The notes below the pieces were generated by a model. That model made no database searches and was not told the DNA's origin. It was given only the letters and a program-made list of their open reading frames with translations. This document shows positions 4,308 through 42,732 of a stretch of DNA of 42,732 nucleotides, one piece after another; position 1 is the stretch's first letter; each line of letters begins with the position of its first letter. Source of the stretch: a virus; IMG/VR virus record IMGVR_UViG_3300043219_000113, positions 1-42,732 of that record. One strand, written 5' to 3'. The position numbers and the translations under genes are program-made.

Positions 4308-4547
4308 TCAAGGTTTGATTCCATTACCCACTCCCCTGCATTGAGTTTCGCCAACTACTTCCCTTGATAGGTAGCTAGGATTATCTTTACCGTCGCGGAT
4401 ATCACGTAAAGCGTTCATTGCAGTATCGCGCCATTTAATAACATGCCTGAAGTTTTTGGTTTGCCACTTCACTAACTTATTTAACCGCGCTATCTCCCTC
4501 CCCTGAGATTCGCAAGTTCTTTCAAGCGCTCGAAAATGCTCTTCCAT
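4308..4547 (-). CDS. Hypothetical coiled-coil protein, 79 aa
   Basis: Residues 1-50 form a long charged helix with coiled-coil spacing (FRALERTCESQGREIARLNKL). GGGAGA precedes the start, and an extended -10 promoter lies about 25 bp upstream. It is the first gene of a four-gene leftward cluster. Confidence 0.65.
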   Translation of the reverse strand: MEEHFRALERTCESQGREIARLNKLVKWQTKNFRHVIKWRDTAMNALRDIRDGKDNPSYLSREVVGETQCRGVGNGIKP

Positions 4548-4569
4548 AATTATCTCCCAATTAACCCTT

Positions 4570-4578
4570 ATTATACCA
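4570..4578 (-). promoter_or_regulatory. Leftward extended -10 promoter (TGGTATAAT)
   Basis: On the minus strand the sequence TGGTATAAT is a perfect extended -10 element, with no good -35. It lies 23 bp before the gene at 4547 and would start the 4547-3764 transcript. Confidence 0.6.
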
Positions 4579-4643
4579 AACTAAGTGTAAATATTCACGG
4601 ATAAAGCCACATGTGGGATTAGCTGTAGATTATTTATTTGACA

Positions 4644-4681
4644 ATAAGCCCCTTTAAACCCCAATAAGGCGGATAAGCCCC
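4644..4681. repeat. Two ATAAGCCCC direct repeats
   Basis: ATAAGCCCC occurs at 4644-4652 and 4673-4681 (29 bp apart), with a related CCAATAAGG between. Short spaced repeats in a gene-free region can be protein-binding sites or replication iterons. With only two copies neither role can be argued strongly. Confidence 0.35.
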
Positions 4682-4698
4682 GATAACACACAAATACC

Positions 4699-4727
4699 TT
4701 GTGCATTGGACTGTATAAGTCTATATT
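4699..4727 (+). promoter_or_regulatory. Rightward promoter for a non-coding RNA (TTGTGC-17-TATATT)
   Basis: TTGTGC (4699-4704) and TATATT (4722-4727) are exactly 17 nt apart. Transcription would begin near 4734, just before a short GCGT/ACGC hairpin and the long terminator stem, with no coding frame downstream. Confidence 0.5.
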
Positions 4728-4733
4728 AGTGCT

Positions 4734-4865
4734 TGTAGGCGTGTAGGAACGCTGAACAGGAATAGAGAAAGGGTCAATAAGTTCAGGTTTTAGAGAGGCA
4801 AGGTTAATATTCCTACTTCTCTATTCCACCCCAATCTCTAGGGTCTGAATTTATTGGCCTTTTTT
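4734..4865 (+). ncRNA. Candidate small RNA with long terminator stem and loop-complementary 5' strand
   Basis: After a small GCGT/ACGC hairpin (4739-4752), bases 4769-4796 can pair almost without interruption with 4835-4862. The core is GGTCAATAAGTTCAG with CTGAATTTATTGGCC, extended by G-U pairs and TAGAGA/TCTCTA. TTTTTT (4860-4865) follows, giving an intrinsic terminator. The 11-nt strand GGAATAGAGAA (4759-4769) is perfectly complementary to TTCTCTATTCC (4817-4827) inside the apical loop, so the RNA could form a pseudoknot or an alternative fold. No open frame of note lies inside. The family was not recognised. Confidence 0.6.
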
Positions 4866-5190
4866 GTGTCTGTTGGTTTGATTTCGGGGCGGTCAATTAA
4901 AGACTAAAAGCTCCTTAACTAAATATTCGCCAGCAGACACAATCCCTCCTTTAGCCTTCCTGAGTCTGTACAGGGGTTGTAATTGTTAGTTAAAAGCTAA
5001 CTTGATCGCTCGCTACCTTCAGGGGCAGTTATTAACCCTGTACAGATTCTATCTTTAAGTACGCCTACCGAGTTGTTATTGATGAGAGTAAAGAAGGTAA
5101 GCTATTTCATCCCGTTTCTGCGGTCAAGATAGAAGCCTTGCTGGTGAGTCACATACTTTAAACAAGCGGGTTTGAGTCCCGAGGCCAGCA
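4865..5190 (+). ncRNA. Candidate multi-domain structured RNA
   Basis: Four consecutive inverted-repeat domains fill this gene-free stretch. The first is TTGTGTCTGTTGG (4865-4877) with CCAGCAGACACAA (4932-4944), one G-U pair. The second is TCTGTACAGGG (4965-4975) with CCCTGTACAGA (5036-5046), containing a GTTAG/CTAAC hairpin. The third is TTCTATCTT (5047-5055) with AAGATAGAA (5126-5134), containing ACCG/CGGT and GATGA/TCATC. The fourth is TGCTGG (5139-5144) with CCAGCA (5185-5190), containing a T-arm-like hairpin (5167-5181). Domains two and three abut exactly. The location beside phage tRNAs recalls large phage RNAs such as GOLLD and ROOL. Membership was not established. Confidence 0.5.
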
Positions 5191-5206
5191 CTCTCTTCAA
5201 TAGCAA

Positions 5207-5218
5207 CTCCCAGTCCAT
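5207..5218 (+). repeat. CTCCCAGTCCAT repeat, copy 1
   Basis: CTCCCAGTCCAT here is repeated exactly at 5791-5802. CAGTCCATATAAG (5211-5223) is repeated exactly at 5414-5426. The copies follow the structured domain, the 58-aa gene and the tRNA pair, so they mark unit boundaries. Function unknown. Confidence 0.5.
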
Positions 5219-5232
5219 ATAAGGAAAGAAAG

Positions 5233-5409
5233 ATGGCGAGCGATAAAGTTACTGTGTTTTGTCCAGAGTGCAAAGAGGAGCAGTTTATTGTCACAATAAC
5301 TGATTCTGGTAGCGGCCCGGATGAATGGGGAACTTGCCACTGGTTTTATGGTGATGGCGTGTGTTCAGAATGCGGATACAAAGGTGATTATTCAGATAGC
5401 AGCCATTAA
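5233..5409 (+). CDS. Zinc-ribbon protein, 58 aa, inside the RNA-rich region
   Basis: The product has CPEC at residues 10-13 and CSEC at 44-47, a treble-clef or zinc-ribbon arrangement, with acidic linkers. AAGGAAAGAAAG gives a good ribosome-binding site. It is the only convincing gene between 4548 and 6233 and lies between structured RNA domains and the tRNAs. It could act with those RNAs, but nothing in the sequence proves it. Confidence 0.65.
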   Translation: MASDKVTVFCPECKEEQFIVTITDSGSGPDEWGTCHWFYGDGVCSECGYKGDYSDSSH

Positions 5410-5413
5410 GCAT

Positions 5414-5426
5414 CAGTCCATATAAG
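5414..5426 (+). repeat. CAGTCCATATAAG repeat, copy 2
   Basis: This is identical over 13 bp to 5211-5223 and starts 5 bp after the stop of the 58-aa gene. It is followed by a small ATTGT-TGG-ACAAT hairpin (5430-5442). Confidence 0.45.
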
Positions 5427-5467
5427 ACATTGTTGGACAATAGAAAGAGTATTTGCTATATTGGTTG

Positions 5468-5528
5468 TGCTGGGTGCAAGTCATCGTACCCAAGAAAGAG
5501 GTTTCCCTAAAGTTCACCTCTCCCAGCA
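5468..5528 (+). ncRNA. tRNA-like 61-nt structured element
   Basis: TGCTGGG (5468-5474) pairs with CCCAGCA (5522-5528) like an acceptor stem. Inside, AGAGGT (5497-5502) pairs with ACCTCT (5516-5521), leaving a 13-nt loop. GGGT/ACCC can compete with the outer stem. No anticodon arm or D arm could be fitted, so this is not called a tRNA. The closing helix UGCUGG/CCAGCA recurs at 5139/5185 and, with one G-U pair, at 4872/4932. Confidence 0.4.
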
Positions 5529-5553
5529 TCCGAATTACAAAAGAACTTAGGCG

Positions 5554-5616
5554 GATTAAAAGCAACTTTAGAGTATAGATTTACATTTCACATTATACCC
5601 TAAAACCGTTTTAATC
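5554..5616 (+). ncRNA. Long hairpin before the tRNA pair
   Basis: GATTAAAA (5554-5561) pairs with TTTTAATC (5609-5616). Inside it, TAGAGTATA (5569-5577) pairs with TATACCCTA (5594-5602) with one A-C mismatch. It ends 14 bp before tRNA-Phe, so it may be part of the precursor or a processing signal. Confidence 0.45.
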
Positions 5617-5629
5617 GAGTTGTTATTGT

Positions 5630-5704
5630 GCACTTGTAGCTGAGACAGATTAGCGTGTGTCTGAAAAACACAAGAGATTGGAGCGTTACCAATCGAGTGC
5701 ACCA
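5630..5704 (+). tRNA. tRNA-Phe (GAA), atypical T- and D-loops
   Basis: The cloverleaf is clear. The acceptor GCACTTG/CGAGTGC (one G-U) is followed by A and encoded CCA (5702-5704). The D stem is GCT/AGC. The anticodon stem TGTGT/ACACA has loop CTGAAAA and anticodon GAA at 5663-5665. The T stem is ATTGG/CCAAT. The T-loop is AGCGTTA instead of TTCRANN, and the D-loop (GAGACAGATT) lacks the GG pair, so both partners of the usual elbow contacts are altered. It could be functional but divergent, or decaying. Only 4 nt separate it from tRNA-Cys, so they share a precursor. Confidence 0.7.
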
Positions 5705-5708
5705 AACA

Positions 5709-5783
5709 GGGTGATTGGCTGAATGGTAAGGCCGCGATCTGCAACATCGATGCTCAGTGGTTCGATTCCACTATCACCCTCCA
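5709..5783 (+). tRNA. tRNA-Cys (GCA)
   Basis: The acceptor GGGTGAT/ATCACCC has discriminator T and encoded CCA (5781-5783). The D arm GGC...GCC has GG in the loop. The anticodon stem CGAT/ATCG encloses loop CTGCAAC, anticodon GCA. The T stem AGTGG/CCACT has the normal loop TTCGATT. It is directly downstream of tRNA-Phe. Phage tRNAs usually offset codon-use differences or host tRNA cleavage. Confidence 0.85.
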
Positions 5784-5790
5784 ATAACAT

Positions 5791-5802
5791 CTCCCAGTCC
5801 AT
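5791..5802 (+). repeat. CTCCCAGTCCAT repeat, copy 3
   Basis: This is identical to 5207-5218 and lies 7 bp after the CCA end of tRNA-Cys. The stretch from here to 5867 holds no gene. Confidence 0.5.
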
Positions 5803-5867
5803 TAGACGCAGTAACAATTGACACTGGCGAAAAAGCAACTGTTATCCAAGACCATTAGGAAACACCT

Positions 5868-5973
5868 ATATTATTAATAACGTTAGAGCGCGGATAAAGC
5901 AGTGTAAGTGCAGGGCTTGGGTTGATCTCCCTACAAGGAATGTAAATAAGATGCTGCATACCGTTAATAATAT
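5868..5973 (+). ncRNA. Structured gene-free segment closed by a 10-bp inverted repeat
   Basis: ATATTATTAA (5868-5877) is perfectly complementary to TTAATAATAT (5964-5973). With a 2-nt bulge the stem extends to AACG/CGTT. Inside are GCAG/CTGC and AGGG/CCCT pairings around GGGCTTGGG, which resembles the motif copied at 5985 and 8210. No coding frame was found here. Confidence 0.4.
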
Positions 5974-5984
5974 CTGTAAAGCAA

Positions 5985-6028
5985 AGAGTATTGGCATGGG
6001 CTATGTAGCGTCCCTGCACAAACGCTCT
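5985..6028 (+). ncRNA. Duplicated structured motif, copy 1
   Basis: This element begins AGAGTATTGGCAT and ends CGCTCT, and folds as AGAG/CTCT closing a GGCA..GGG/CCC..TGC hairpin. It aligns almost fully with 8210-8252 apart from three single-base indels and one or two substitutions. It lies upstream of the attenuator-like element and the SPFH gene. Confidence 0.5.
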
Positions 6029-6080
6029 TTATGTTTGCTATGTTTTTCAATAAGTTAGAGTAAAATTATACAGGAAATGC

Positions 6081-6108
6081 TTGCATAATTAAATAAAATG
6101 ACTATTAT
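6081..6108 (+). promoter_or_regulatory. Candidate promoter (TTGCAT-16-TATTAT)
   Basis: TTGCAT and TATTAT are 16 nt apart and would start transcription near 6115, a few bases before the folded element at 6121-6216. The -10 is good and the -35 weak. Confidence 0.35.
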
Positions 6109-6114
6109 TATTAC

Positions 6115-6216
6115 TGGGTCGTGGTTGTCCCTTAACGAAGCTAAACAAGCTCTGATCTTTATCCTTTTTTGACTGCTTCGGTCACAACCACAAGGGATAG
6201 GGGTCAGAGCTTTTTT
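6115..6216 (+). promoter_or_regulatory. Attenuator or riboswitch-like leader of the SPFH gene
   Basis: Bases 6147-6167 pair with 6192-6212 in a continuous 21-bp stem with several G-U pairs (outer part AAGCTCTGA/TCAGAGCTT). TTTTTT (6211-6216) follows, a strong intrinsic terminator 18 bp before the next start codon. The upstream strand holds GTGGTTGT (6121-6128) and CGAAGC (6136-6141), perfectly complementary to ACAACCAC (6184-6191) and GCTTCG (6175-6180) in the apical loop. A pseudoknot or a competing fold could set read-through into the SPFH operon. It could instead be a separate small RNA. The topology matches 4734-4865. No known riboswitch class was recognised. Confidence 0.6.
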
Positions 6217-6233
6217 ATTATCTGGAGATTAGA

Positions 6234-7157
6234 ATGAAGATTAAATTAATTGCAGTAATTTCAGTGTTAATGGTTTTGGTGGGTTGCGGTACAAAGGTCG
6301 AGGTTCCTCCGGCTAATGTCGGGAAGATTTTAACTAAGAACGGCTTTGCGCCCGAAACGGTCCCGCCTAGTAAGTTCAGGCTTCCTGCCTGCTTGTCATA
6401 TTGTGATCGCCTGGTATTGCTTGAGGCTAGCGATAATAAGCTTGTCGAGCTGTTAACGGTCTTTATGCCGAAGGATAAGCTGAACATTACCGTTGACATT
6501 AGGGGGACGTACTCTATACCCACCTCCAAAAAATCTGTTGACTCGATTTACAGTAAGGTCGTGGCGCAGGAGATGGGGAATTCGCTATCAGCTATTACAG
6601 CTAAATCTGTTTATGCTACTTATGGTCAGCAGGCCGTTAGAGGAATTGTCCGCAGCGAAATAACTAAATATTCTATTAGCGAGGTCTTGGCTCAAAGAGA
6701 GGTAATCGGCCAGAATATTCACGCCGCTATTGCTGCAAAACTGGCGGCAACCAATACGCCAATTTCGATCAGTCGTTTTGAGCTTGCTAACATTCAGCCG
6801 CCAGCGGTTATTGTTAAAGCTCAAGAATCCGCTAAAGAGCGTGAGATTGATATTCAAAAAGCTGAGGCAGAGGCACAGATTGATCTAGTGAAGGCTGAGA
6901 GGGCGCTGGAAATAGCCAAGAAGGATCGTCTGGTTAAGCGAGAGGAAGCGGAGTCAATCGCAGAGCAGAATCGAATAGCTGCGAAATCCATCACCCCCCA
7001 GTTGCTGGCTTACAGAAAGCTTGAGACAGCTGAAAGAATTTATACCGCCTTAGCGAAATCAAATAACGTGGTTATTGTTCCGGCTGATTCATCTGGGTTT
7101 AGCAACATTAATGATAATGCCGTTCTGGCCAAGTTAATAGGAAGGGAGTTTAAGTAA
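6234..7157 (+). CDS. SPFH/band-7 (prohibitin-like) lipoprotein
   Basis: This 307-aa protein has a lipoprotein signal (residues 1-18) with lipobox LVGC, acylated Cys18. A band-7 domain follows at about 25-210 (FMPKDKLNITVDIRGTYSI...VLAQREVIGQNIHAAI...ISISRFELANIQPP). Next is a charged coiled-coil (about 195-250) and a short C-terminal region. SPFH proteins form ring or cage assemblies on membranes; HflK/HflC restrain FtsH. Lipid anchoring would place the domain in the periplasm. Its mRNA starts after an attenuator-like terminator. The next gene overlaps as TAATG and encodes a membrane protein, probably its partner. The role in infection is unknown. Confidence 0.8.
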   Translation: MKIKLIAVISVLMVLVGCGTKVEVPPANVGKILTKNGFAPETVPPSKFRLPACLSYCDRLVLLEASDNKLVELLTVFMPKDKLNITVDIRGTYSIPTSKKSVDSIYSKVVAQEMGNSLSAITAKSVYATYGQQAVRGIVRSEITKYSISEVLAQREVIGQNIHAAIAAKLAATNTPISISRFELANIQPPAVIVKAQESAKEREIDIQKAEAEAQIDLVKAERALEIAKKDRLVKREEAESIAEQNRIAAKSITPQLLAYRKLETAERIYTALAKSNNVVIVPADSSGFSNINDNAVLAKLIGREFK

Positions 7158-8197: not shown

Positions 8198-8209
8198 ATA
8201 TATACTCAC

Positions 8210-8252
8210 AGAGTATTGGCATAGGGCTTGTAGCATCCCTGCCAAACGCTCT
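8210..8252 (+). promoter_or_regulatory. Duplicated structured motif, copy 2
   Basis: This segment aligns with 5985-6028 with few changes and keeps the AGAG/CTCT and GGCA..GGG/CCC..TGCC pairings. It lies 34 bp before the gene at 8287, so a 5' leader role is plausible. Confidence 0.5.
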
Positions 8253-8286
8253 ATAGGACAATTAACTTTAATTATTGGAGATTAGG

Positions 8287-11779: not shown

Positions 11780-13741
11780 ATGACCGGCTTCCCCGCCTTT
11801 GGTGACACGACCTTTCCTAATTACATAGAGTCCTTCACCCTTGCTTCGTCAGGTGATAAGGGCTCTCTGAATGCCTCAGGTAATGTGGACTATGACTCAG
11901 CATTAGGCGCAAGAATAGGTACAACCATTACTGACGGCTCAACTTTGAGCTGGGATAATACTTTTGCTACTACCACTCACAGCCTGGATGATGGATTTAG
12001 TGTCAGTTTTGACGTAGAGAAAGGCATATTTGCGGGCACTATTGGCGGTCAGGCCGAGAATCGAACGTTATTTTTAATCGATGGAACTGAAGAGGCGGCG
12101 GTTTCACGGCAATTAACCAACACTAACTGGACCATTCTTAATGATGGAACACCCACCTTCACCGGTTATGTAACCCGGCATCAGGAATACACCACAAAGG
12201 TTAGAGTGGATATTAGCTTTGACCCCACGATCGGTAGTTTTGGCAACATCAAAGTATGGGCTAATAGATACCCGCTAATAGACCAAGACCTCTCTGCTTT
12301 GCCTGATTTTGATTCCGGACTTAATTTATCCGGATTAGGTACAGCAGGCTTTCCCAACATCTCACAGCGATTTAGCAATGTTCAGCTAATCGGCGCTCCA
12401 CTCTCATTCGATACCGTCAACAAGGTCAGGCTCTCTCATATGGGCGATAGCTGGATAGCGACCTATGGACAGCAGGAATTAGGCGGCGCAAATGATACGC
12501 CAGTCTTAACAGGTTATCAGGGTACGGAAGATAGTAGCAGTTACCTGGCCTCGGCCTCATGGAAAAACACAGCCTACGTGGCGCAGCTCACTAATGACTT
12601 GATTGAAAAGGGTATTTATCCAGACGGTGCGGCTGATCAGATGGGGTTTTATGGCCAAGATGGTGGTTTGTTAGGTGATAGTGGAGCAAAGCCCTTTGAT
12701 GAGCGTGTTGATGCCTGCTTAGCACCTCAAGGATCGGCTGGTACACCTTTCCCCTTCCCTGGTCAGGGATCAGCCACTACTGAAGTCTACATAACGCATG
12801 TAGGTACTAACAGCGTGTCTGGCTTTTCTAATGCCCAGATGGATGGCTTCTTTGCTGATTTTGAGGTTAACATTGATCGATTAATTACTGCCGGTGGCTT
12901 AGTAGTTGTGGATTTAATAACACCCCGTTACGACGGCAGCAGTATTCCCCAAGATGTTGACGAAGTTGATTACATGAACGGCCTGCTATCTTCATTGGAG
13001 GGCAGAAGGAATGCTTGTACAGTGAATACGGAAGTTAATACTTTATTTGCTGCTGATGCTACACTTGCTAACGAAATACATCCATCAAGAACGGGTCAAG
13101 TGGTATGGGCGCAAACGGTAGCGAGTGCAATAGAAAGGGTTCTTAATATGGCTATTACAATCCTTGGGAATAATGATAATACAAACGCAGTAACTAACGC
13201 TGTTAACGTGAGTACGATCCAAACAACTAATTTCGCCACTTCTGCACCTTTAGCCATCGATAGGAACTATAGGATAGTTCGATATGGGATATACGGTGAA
13301 TCACTCAACACTACAACAAAAACCAACGAAATCTATATCTATGACCATGACGGAGTGATCACTAATCTCCCCGGCATTTTTGTTACAGGTGACAATATTG
13401 AATTTACGGCAGTAGAGCCTGTCGATTTTTACTTTAAAACCCCGGACTCAGAGGTTATCCTTACCCCAGCCATGTTTCCATCAGGGTTTGCAGTGGTTGC
13501 GTTAGCTGCGACAGGTGCAACGGCAAGGGTTTATAAGGGTAGTAGTGGCGGCTCAAATGCATTTATAGACACCACTGGCGTATCGACTCCAGCTCCTGAT
13601 CCTTTCCCTGTTGCGGCGACATCACTAACAGAGTCAATTATCATATTTGTTGAGCTGGAAGAGATAGCATCGGGCGTAGCCTTAACCAGCGACCTAACGA
13701 GAGACCTAACAAGCAACTTAACATTTAATTTAACAGGATAA
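11780..13741 (+). CDS. SGNH/GDSL-hydrolase tail protein
   Basis: This 653-aa protein has a strand-rich N-terminal domain of about 210 residues that resembles a lectin-like jelly roll. An SGNH-hydrolase module follows: GDS with Ser224 (LSHMGDSWIATYG), GTN with Asn344 (THVGTNSVS), and His434 in NEIHPSRTGQ. The usual Asp two before His is Glu432. Residues 455-653 form a second strand-rich domain. Such phage enzymes remove acetyl groups from surface glycans during attachment. The ribosome-binding site is weak. Its place ahead of the terminase genes, apart from the tailspike, is unusual. Confidence 0.75.
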   Translation: MTGFPAFGDTTFPNYIESFTLASSGDKGSLNASGNVDYDSALGARIGTTITDGSTLSWDNTFATTTHSLDDGFSVSFDVEKGIFAGTIGGQAENRTLFLIDGTEEAAVSRQLTNTNWTILNDGTPTFTGYVTRHQEYTTKVRVDISFDPTIGSFGNIKVWANRYPLIDQDLSALPDFDSGLNLSGLGTAGFPNISQRFSNVQLIGAPLSFDTVNKVRLSHMGDSWIATYGQQELGGANDTPVLTGYQGTEDSSSYLASASWKNTAYVAQLTNDLIEKGIYPDGAADQMGFYGQDGGLLGDSGAKPFDERVDACLAPQGSAGTPFPFPGQGSATTEVYITHVGTNSVSGFSNAQMDGFFADFEVNIDRLITAGGLVVVDLITPRYDGSSIPQDVDEVDYMNGLLSSLEGRRNACTVNTEVNTLFAADATLANEIHPSRTGQVVWAQTVASAIERVLNMAITILGNNDNTNAVTNAVNVSTIQTTNFATSAPLAIDRNYRIVRYGIYGESLNTTTKTNEIYIYDHDGVITNLPGIFVTGDNIEFTAVEPVDFYFKTPDSEVILTPAMFPSGFAVVALAATGATARVYKGSSGGSNAFIDTTGVSTPAPDPFPVAATSLTESIIIFVELEEIASGVALTSDLTRDLTSNLTFNLTG

Positions 13742-42077: not shown

Positions 42078-42274
42078 TATTGCTTATCTCCAAAAGTTTC
42101 ACTACCGTTTAAATATCCCTTTAAAGAAGGGTTGCCAGTATAAGTACCATCAGGACGCTTCATTGATTCAGGCTCAAGCTCTCTAAAGTTTTCTTCAAAG
42201 TTATCGAAGATAGAAGGCCCATTGTTTTTAAGATCGTTCTCTAGCTCTTCTACTTCGGCTCTTGATTTAATCAT
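42077..42274 (-). CDS. Hypothetical acidic protein, 65 aa
   Basis: It overlaps the end of the pentapeptide gene by 8 bp and abuts the next gene. The product is acidic and helical (AEVEELENDLKNNGPSIFDNF), and its tail is glycine-rich. No family was recognised. Confidence 0.6.
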   Translation of the reverse strand: MIKSRAEVEELENDLKNNGPSIFDNFEENFRELEPESMKRPDGTYTGNPSLKGYLNGSETFGDKQ

Positions 42275-42732
42275 TGGTCTTATCCTCTTTTTTTACATAA
42301 GGCGTAGCAGGCGATACTTCGACAATTTTAAGAATGATATCTCTGTACTTTTTCCAAAAATCGCTTTCGTGGTCTTTCATTTCAAGCCAGTCACCAAAGC
42401 TTAATTGCGTACAACCAAATGCTATTGAGTCGGTGTTATAGGTTATTGAAAACTCACTTTCGATATGTAGTGACTTTATTTCAGACCCGTTTCCTACAGC
42501 GTTATTTATGTGAATAGAGCTCAAGTCGGCAGAGCTCAAGTCGGCAGAGCGCAAGTCGGCATAGCTCAAGTCGGCAGAGCGCAAGTCGGCAGAGCGCAAG
42601 TCGGCAGAGCGCAAGTTGGCAGAGCGCAAGTCGGCATAGCTCAAGTTGGCATAGCTCAAGTTGGCAGAGCGCAAGTCGGCATAGCGCAAGTAGGCATAGC
42701 TCAAGTCGGCAGAGCGAAAGTTGGCAGAGCGC
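42267..42732 (-). CDS. Pentapeptide-repeat protein, C-terminal part
   Basis: This is the continuation of the gene that starts at 396. About 14 further pentapeptides are followed by an 80-residue non-repeat end (IHINNAVGNGSEIKSLHIESEF...IAFGCTQLSFGDWLEMKDHE). The same end type (AVGN, IKS, IGC, W) is seen in other phage pentapeptide proteins. An internal ATG at 42704 is not the real start, since repeats continue beyond it to the contig edge. Near the edge the units AYLRY and ANFRS deviate from the main pattern. Confidence 0.88.
   Translation of the reverse strand, partial: RSANFRSADLSYAYLRYADLRSANLSYANLSYADLRSANLRSADLRSADLRSADLSYADLRSADLSSADLSSIHINNAVGNGSEIKSLHIESEFSITYNTDSIAFGCTQLSFGDWLEMKDHESDFWKKYRDIILKIVEVSPATPYVKKEDKTND

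Follow-up and report, generated by a model that had tools for sequence, protein, structure and literature searches.

We propose that positions 4547-6234 of IMGVR_UViG_3300043219_000113, a 42,732-nt viral record from IMG/VR that was analysed whole (hereafter the window), form a phage structural-RNA locus, in which a new ornate RNA carries a portable mimic of the T-arm and elbow of transfer RNA (tRNA) that is exchanged between substrates of tRNA enzymes. We hold this reading with about as much confidence as doubt. It is grounded on a predicted fold and its excess over chance, on conservation and covariation, on the contexts in which the mimic occurs and on the absence of matches in cellular genomes; expression, processing, a protein partner and a purpose are what we infer from there. 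The original prediction had suspected a large ornate RNA near tRNAs, of the GOLLD and ROOL kind, and the excess of folding at 4690-5230, beside two tRNA genes, bears it out; that prediction had missed the portable module, a pseudoknot, and the division of the region into three parts: an RNA of 530 nt, followed by a small gene and then a tRNA unit.

The region had been described as RNA-dense over 1.7 kb; its structure is strong, but confined to the first 530 bases. The fold of 4690-5230 had a z-score of -10.55 against 40 tiles of 540 nt from the same genome (mean -0.52, standard deviation 1.19, lowest -3.46), and 4620-5230 reached z -11.3, while the coding stretch 5231-5412 gave z +0.61; 200-nt sliding folds miss the signal because such windows cut the domains. 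In the minimum-free-energy fold, an outer helix P0 (4697-4713 pairing with 5211-5224; all window features lie on the plus strand unless stated) encloses a small hairpin, the 9-bp long-range helix P1 (4735-4743/5060-5068) with the pseudoknot domain and hairpins B and C inside it, and hairpin D. Hairpin B (4864-4942, 13 bp, TTGTGTCTGTTGG/CCAGCAGACACAA) follows directly 3' of the U6 that ends stem S2, hairpin C (4959-5049), also an inverted repeat, has 4998-5019 within its apical loop, and hairpin D (5070-5209), whose stem GAGTTGTTATTG/CAATAGCAACTC consists of repeats, encloses the module. Judged by this predicted architecture, 4690-5230 appears to be a previously uncatalogued large ornate phage RNA, like GOLLD and ROOL in kind, not in sequence.

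The pseudoknot domain comprises helix S1 (4759-4769/4817-4827, 5' arm GGAATAGAGAA, 11 of 11 pairs) and S2 (4768-4864, arms 4768-4787/4845-4862), a 19-bp stem that crosses S1 and runs into U6 in the manner of a terminator; the two would form either a large pseudoknot or mutually alternative helices. Searches through the lipoprotein and portal protein yielded no relative of the window phage near enough for covariation over the whole RNA. L050, a 41.6-kb IMG/VR contig, comes from a distantly related phage; several proteins, including endolysin, NinG and Erf-like proteins, are common to the two at 23-57% identity. A noncoding stretch of about 900 bases in L050 presents, in order, an S1 of 10 bp without mismatch, an S2 of 19 bp that ends in a run of U, hairpin B (TATGTCTGTTATTTG/CAAATAACAGGCATA, 15 bp) and the module; its positions 13040-13620 fold at z -10.6, and 13071-13180 have the S2 topology and AAAG/CTTT base of the window. 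Because the arm sequences differ, except in the module and TGTCTGTT, this structural agreement amounts to covariation between two sequences. Perfect 10-bp helices arose in 10 of 2000 shuffles of the stretch concerned in the window and in 32 of 2000 for L050. CTTTTTT-TGTCTGTT-TTTG was tried as a marker for further ornate RNAs and rejected: it occurs in 21 other contigs, and the tail with its downstream arm as a hairpin was seen only in L050 and the window. A form of the same tail, TTTTTT-(1-2 nt)-TGTCTGTT-TTTG, trails ordinary intrinsic terminators in several unrelated phages (contigs L107-L127).

The module enclosed by hairpin D (5130-5203) is the only copy in the window, scoring 69.9 bits (E 3.6e-17) with its covariance model. 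Modules are 60-75 nt long and fold as a three-way junction of a variable closing helix, at the place of an acceptor stem, a D-arm-like hairpin and a tRNA-type T-arm, with no anticodon arm; in the window these are module helix P1 (5140-5145/5184-5189), the D-like arm (5146-5149/5155-5158), a linker (5159-5166) and the T-arm (5167-5170/5178-5181, loop TTTGAGT). A core of 42-43 nt is nearly invariant in 33 IMG/VR contigs and Xanthomonas phage Kintu, usually GTGAGGCACATCCTTTAAACCAAGCGGGTTTGAGTCCCGAGGC; that of the window, GTGAGTCACATACTTTAAACAAGCGGG..., has a linker one base shorter. Counted on 21 distinct sequences, compensatory change affects 10 of the 12 pairs of the closing helix, two pairs of the D-like arm (GARN-CACAU-NYUU) and one of the T-arm (CNGG-UUUGAGU-CCNG), so that both partners vary in 13 of the 20 pairs, with 91.7% of cells paired; the covariation score was 0.515, against 0.162 when shuffled (0 of 500) and at most 0.169 when partners were slid. 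The original prediction had proposed compensatory changes as a check, and these are found in the module and, between two sequences only, in the pseudoknot domain. The T-arm has a T-stem and a 7-nt loop of type UUYRANN (CGGG-UUUGAGU-CCCG), the stem changing from G-C through U-G to C-G. The module as a whole gave no tRNA covariance match above the gathering score, and has 8-9 nt in place of an anticodon arm. When sequences are folded singly, an AAACC/GGTTT hairpin inside the module competes with this structure and is often preferred, but we set it aside as it shows no compensatory change by eye, whereas the T-arm does; a frameshifting role for the slippery heptamer TTTAAAC was likewise rejected, as the tRNA and transfer-messenger RNA (tmRNA) contexts have no reading frame.

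The first lead to copies elsewhere was a blastn match of 48 bases between the region and noncoding DNA of Kintu. Pattern scans of IMG/VR found the core in the 33 contigs, besides a copy in L055 cut by the contig end, with a single module at each locus searched, even where the array counts as many as 18 tRNAs. One group of settings is the permuted tmRNA gene: RF04321 matches span the module in L010, L020, L058, L059, L068 and L071, and 13 further contigs belong to the group. By ARAGORN, a permuted tmRNA extends across the module in L059, L061 and L065-L070, and the members that are left have these flanks in common. The intervening sequence of L059 reads CCACCA, module, GGGGGTGACC, so that the module is almost all of it. 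In tRNA arrays the module stands between two tRNAs (L007, L012, L013), behind one tRNA (L014, L055 and L018, whose tRNA-Ser was read by eye) or near tRNAs (L006, L063). Large RNAs bear it in the window, L050, L075, Kintu and the Kintu relatives L011 and L015; in Kintu it is an insertion, the site being empty in phages CUB19, S72, SOVA965 and Silvergun, and in Silvergun, an Acinetobacter phage, a tRNA is inserted elsewhere in the same large RNA. In the window, one repeated stem closes both the module and the tRNA pair. At the sensitivity used, the pattern matched 25 contigs among 84,980 bacterial and archaeal genomes, none of the 25 with the T-arm or closing helix, and nothing on plasmids, and the module is, by these searches, apparently phage-specific. 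L072 encodes a lipoprotein 66% identical to that of the window, and several tRNAs, yet no module. The open-access literature searched contained no description of the module. In three of the tRNA-array cases, L007 (344-481), L012 (10714-10955) and L013 (1927-2171), the module is immediately preceded by tRNA-Lys(UUU), the known target of the anticodon nuclease PrrC.

We suggest that the locus would be read rightward, giving as first product an ornate RNA of about 530 nt made up of the pseudoknot domain, a pair of long hairpins and, at the end, the hairpin that bears the module. Phages would shuttle this module among transcripts processed by tRNA enzymes, where it would act as a T-arm and elbow mimic bound by a tRNA-handling protein or ribonuclease P (RNase P), and binding would either mature the carrier RNA or occupy the bound factor as a decoy. 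Because there is one copy per locus, the core is near-invariant and the settings are almost all substrates of tRNA enzymes, the module is plausibly a small RNA released or recognised by the tRNA machinery; because its T-arm is canonical, the candidate partners are proteins that recognise the elbow of tRNA. The module may be a decoy, a processing element or an aptamer, and the mimic is what we infer and favour. More tentatively, and with more doubt than belief, the module could be a new phage-only class of RNA, a tRNA mimic that lacks an anticodon arm and travels from phage to phage as a cassette, to be freed by tRNA-processing enzymes and then to occupy an elbow-reading host factor such as a tRNA-targeting defence enzyme. 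If instead the module serves the maturation or stability of its carrier, folding fast, spacing tRNAs or filling the tmRNA intervening sequence and guiding RNase P, RNase Z or other RNases, with no role once excised, this would explain why almost every copy lies in a transcript that tRNA enzymes cut and why one makes up almost the whole intervening sequence in L059; the single copy per locus even among 18 tRNAs, and a core conserved far beyond the needs of a spacer hairpin, make this rather unlikely in our view. An invariant core within a compact three-way junction is also typical of aptamers, and a glutamine riboswitch has been reported with the permuted tmRNA gene of methylophage Melnitz (PMC9004378), but the modules share no downstream gene or expression platform and most are followed by a tRNA or tmRNA body, so we give a ligand-binding, riboswitch-like module very little chance. 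Several observations weigh against the mimic and its locus as we read them. The GG of tRNA D-loops is missing from the D-like loop (CACAU), and junctions of 0, 9 and 2 are not the lengths found in tRNA, so that a tRNA-shaped fold is only putative; no shared protein accounts for a decoy, only HNH endonucleases recurring among the module phages; two kinds of module copy (L005/L008 and L009) have no tRNA in sight nearby; and the covariation of the pseudoknot domain, resting on two sequences, is suggestive and statistically not strong alone.

The 530-nt structure itself has two further explanations, one of which involves the gene at its 3' edge. This gene (5233-5409), the only plausible one in 4547-6234, as had been predicted, has a good ribosome-binding site and encodes a Cys-rich protein of 58 amino acids (CPEC...CSEC, zinc-ribbon-like by eye) for which no PHROG, Pfam or phage relative was found. 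The loop of hairpin C (4998-5019) is complementary to its start codon region (5230-5251) at 20 of 22 pairs; none of 200 shuffles reached 20 pairs and five reached 19, the shuffles being of single bases and for one site pair picked after the fact. The loop probably represses translation of the adjacent gene as well, and this complementarity, together with a 13-base direct repeat at 5211 and 5414, suggests that the gene was inserted where the ornate RNA has its 3' edge and that its translation may be under the control of this RNA. The whole structure could then be a translational leader, the loop, weakly paired in the fold, acting on the start and the rest serving as scaffold; we consider this unlikely, as no relatives of the gene are known and at other loci it was not seen next to the module (such a loop was not sought in other ornate RNAs), and the post hoc choice of sites and the single-base shuffles temper the statistic. 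Alternatively the region is not one RNA: S2 and U6 could be a plain terminator ending an upstream transcript, with the remainder a tRNA precursor holding incidental hairpins, which the recurrence of the TTTTTT-TGTCTGTT tail behind ordinary terminators in other phages and the promoter-like site at 5434-5462 would fit. In the fold, however, P0 and P1 close over S2, and in the window as in L050 the tail and its downstream arm pair to form hairpin B, making a composite region decidedly unlikely.

A structural-RNA locus with a portable mimic invites comparison with catalogued RNAs. Rfam 15, searched at gathering score and at E<=10, matched only tRNAs in the window. As the original prediction had reported, neither GOLLD nor ROOL was matched: GOLLD (RF02032, gathering score 150 bits) gave no window match at E<=10 in a search whose sensitivity is unproven, no control genome having passed the cut-off, and ROOL (RF03087, 99.1 bits) matched neither the window nor any control genome. 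Both are often near tRNA islands, and some GOLLD RNAs carry tRNAs in a linker region (PMC12286853). Like GOLLD, a large and highly structured RNA of phages and prophages near tRNAs, the window RNA adjoins tRNA genes, but it holds the T-arm module inside, not a whole tRNA; with ROOL it has in common that it is large, by prediction pseudoknotted, phage-borne and near tRNAs. A further mark of GOLLD is its assembly into a homo-oligomeric RNA cage. The Kintu-type large RNA sits before tRNA genes and has the same module in Kintu, L011 and L015, but, the module apart, its sequence is not similar to that of the window RNA. We know of no function for GOLLD or ROOL. Proteo-phage-1 (RF03044) did not match the window and gave sub-threshold matches in SOVA965 and Silvergun only. 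The tmRNA models (RF00023, RF04321) did not match the window either, nor was a tRNA-like domain with a tag frame found; the permuted two-piece tmRNA differs in that the module, which can make up its intervening sequence in phages, lies outside the mature tmRNA. In the parts consulted of a 2025 survey of 97,179 tmRNA sequences, permuted intervening sequences with one tRNA gene and one repetitive element are described, and no module-like element is mentioned (PMC11915505). The module's spread over ornate RNAs, tRNA arrays and permuted tmRNA genes would link such RNAs to the tRNA machinery and give the intervening sequence of the phage two-piece tmRNA a concrete meaning; it offers a 75-nt handle for biochemistry on ornate RNAs, and the covariance model from its alignment can be used on any sequence collection. 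YrlA, a bacterial Y RNA with a tRNA-like domain, is a tRNA mimic without decoding function; as a counterpart it was rejected, since its partner Ro60 (TROVE, PF05731) was found in none of seven module-bearing phage records (a control genome matched) and Rfam gave no match.

In Stenotrophomonas, Xanthomonas and Acinetobacter phages, tRNA arrays are preceded by a large conserved noncoding RNA of about 600-800 nt (L101 1490-2226, L102 1500-2065, L103 1500-2105, L104 1400-2236), which matches Proteo-phage-1 only weakly. A conserved domain of the Kintu-type large RNAs has two hairpins with complementary loops, GCTGAT and ATCAGC, inside a common stem, and in some of them fragments of a tRNA or a T-arm separate the two hairpins (L003 3140-3300, L075 11620-11780 on the minus strand, L101, L102, L104, and many Klebsiella and Escherichia phages); 136 phage records match the Kintu large RNA, many at pieces of this domain, for which Rfam has no name.

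The stretch 4547-6234 is flanked by minus-strand small genes on one side and a plus-strand lipoprotein gene (PHROG 200) on the other, and 4690-5230 is followed on its 3' side by the 58-codon gene, tRNA-Phe(GAA), tRNA-Cys(GCA) and a strong terminator. The two tRNAs, both foreseen by the original prediction and both with an encoded CCA, exceed the RF00005 gathering score of 29 bits: tRNA-Phe (5630-5704), with the unusual T-loop AGCGTTA, was found by Rfam only (5630-5701, 43.8 bits), tRNA-Cys (5709-5783) by ARAGORN and Rfam (5709-5780, 52.5 bits). They form a cassette (5617-5793) closed by GAGTTGTTATTG/CAATAACATCTC, the same stem as in hairpin D. The repeated boundary motif also proved real, with two copies each of CGAGTTGTTATTG (5069, 5616), CTYCAATARCAWCTCCCAGTCCAT (5195, 5779) and the 13-nt CAGTCCATATAAG, whose copy at 5211 is contained in the 3' strand of P0 and recurs at 5414-5426, the two flanking the 58-codon gene; and the prediction of at least eight inverted-repeat domains agrees with 28 inverted-repeat pairs in 4540-6240. 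Predicted promoters and terminators fared less evenly. Scans were at chance (three consensus promoters against 4.5 expected, two simple terminators against 1.8), despite which two long hairpins with a terminal T run are clear, at 4768-4864 and 6142-6222, and one good promoter-like candidate stands at 5434-5462 (TGGACA-17-TATATT with TG before the second hexamer, 10 of 12 matches by consensus only). The second T-run hairpin, an inverted repeat at 6142-6217, is strongly terminator-like (6101-6222, z -5.2), and a further structured stretch lies at 5861-6045 (z -2.9 to -3.0).

The non-canonical T-loop AGCGTTA, in place of TTCRANN, occurs in the window tRNA-Phe (5677-5693), in tRNA-Gly of Kintu (L003 3524-3540) and in a tRNA-like gene of L010 (minus strand, near 2905-2921), all three with a module within about 600 bases; an unannotated tRNA of Pectobacterium phage My1 has the related loop ATCGTTA. 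A noncoding element of 50 bases occurs twice between genes of the window, at 5982-6031 and 8207-8255, the two copies being 88% identical. Because both ends of the record (1-420 and 42267-42731) fall inside one pentapeptide-repeat gene, the record is probably a circular genome broken within those repeats.

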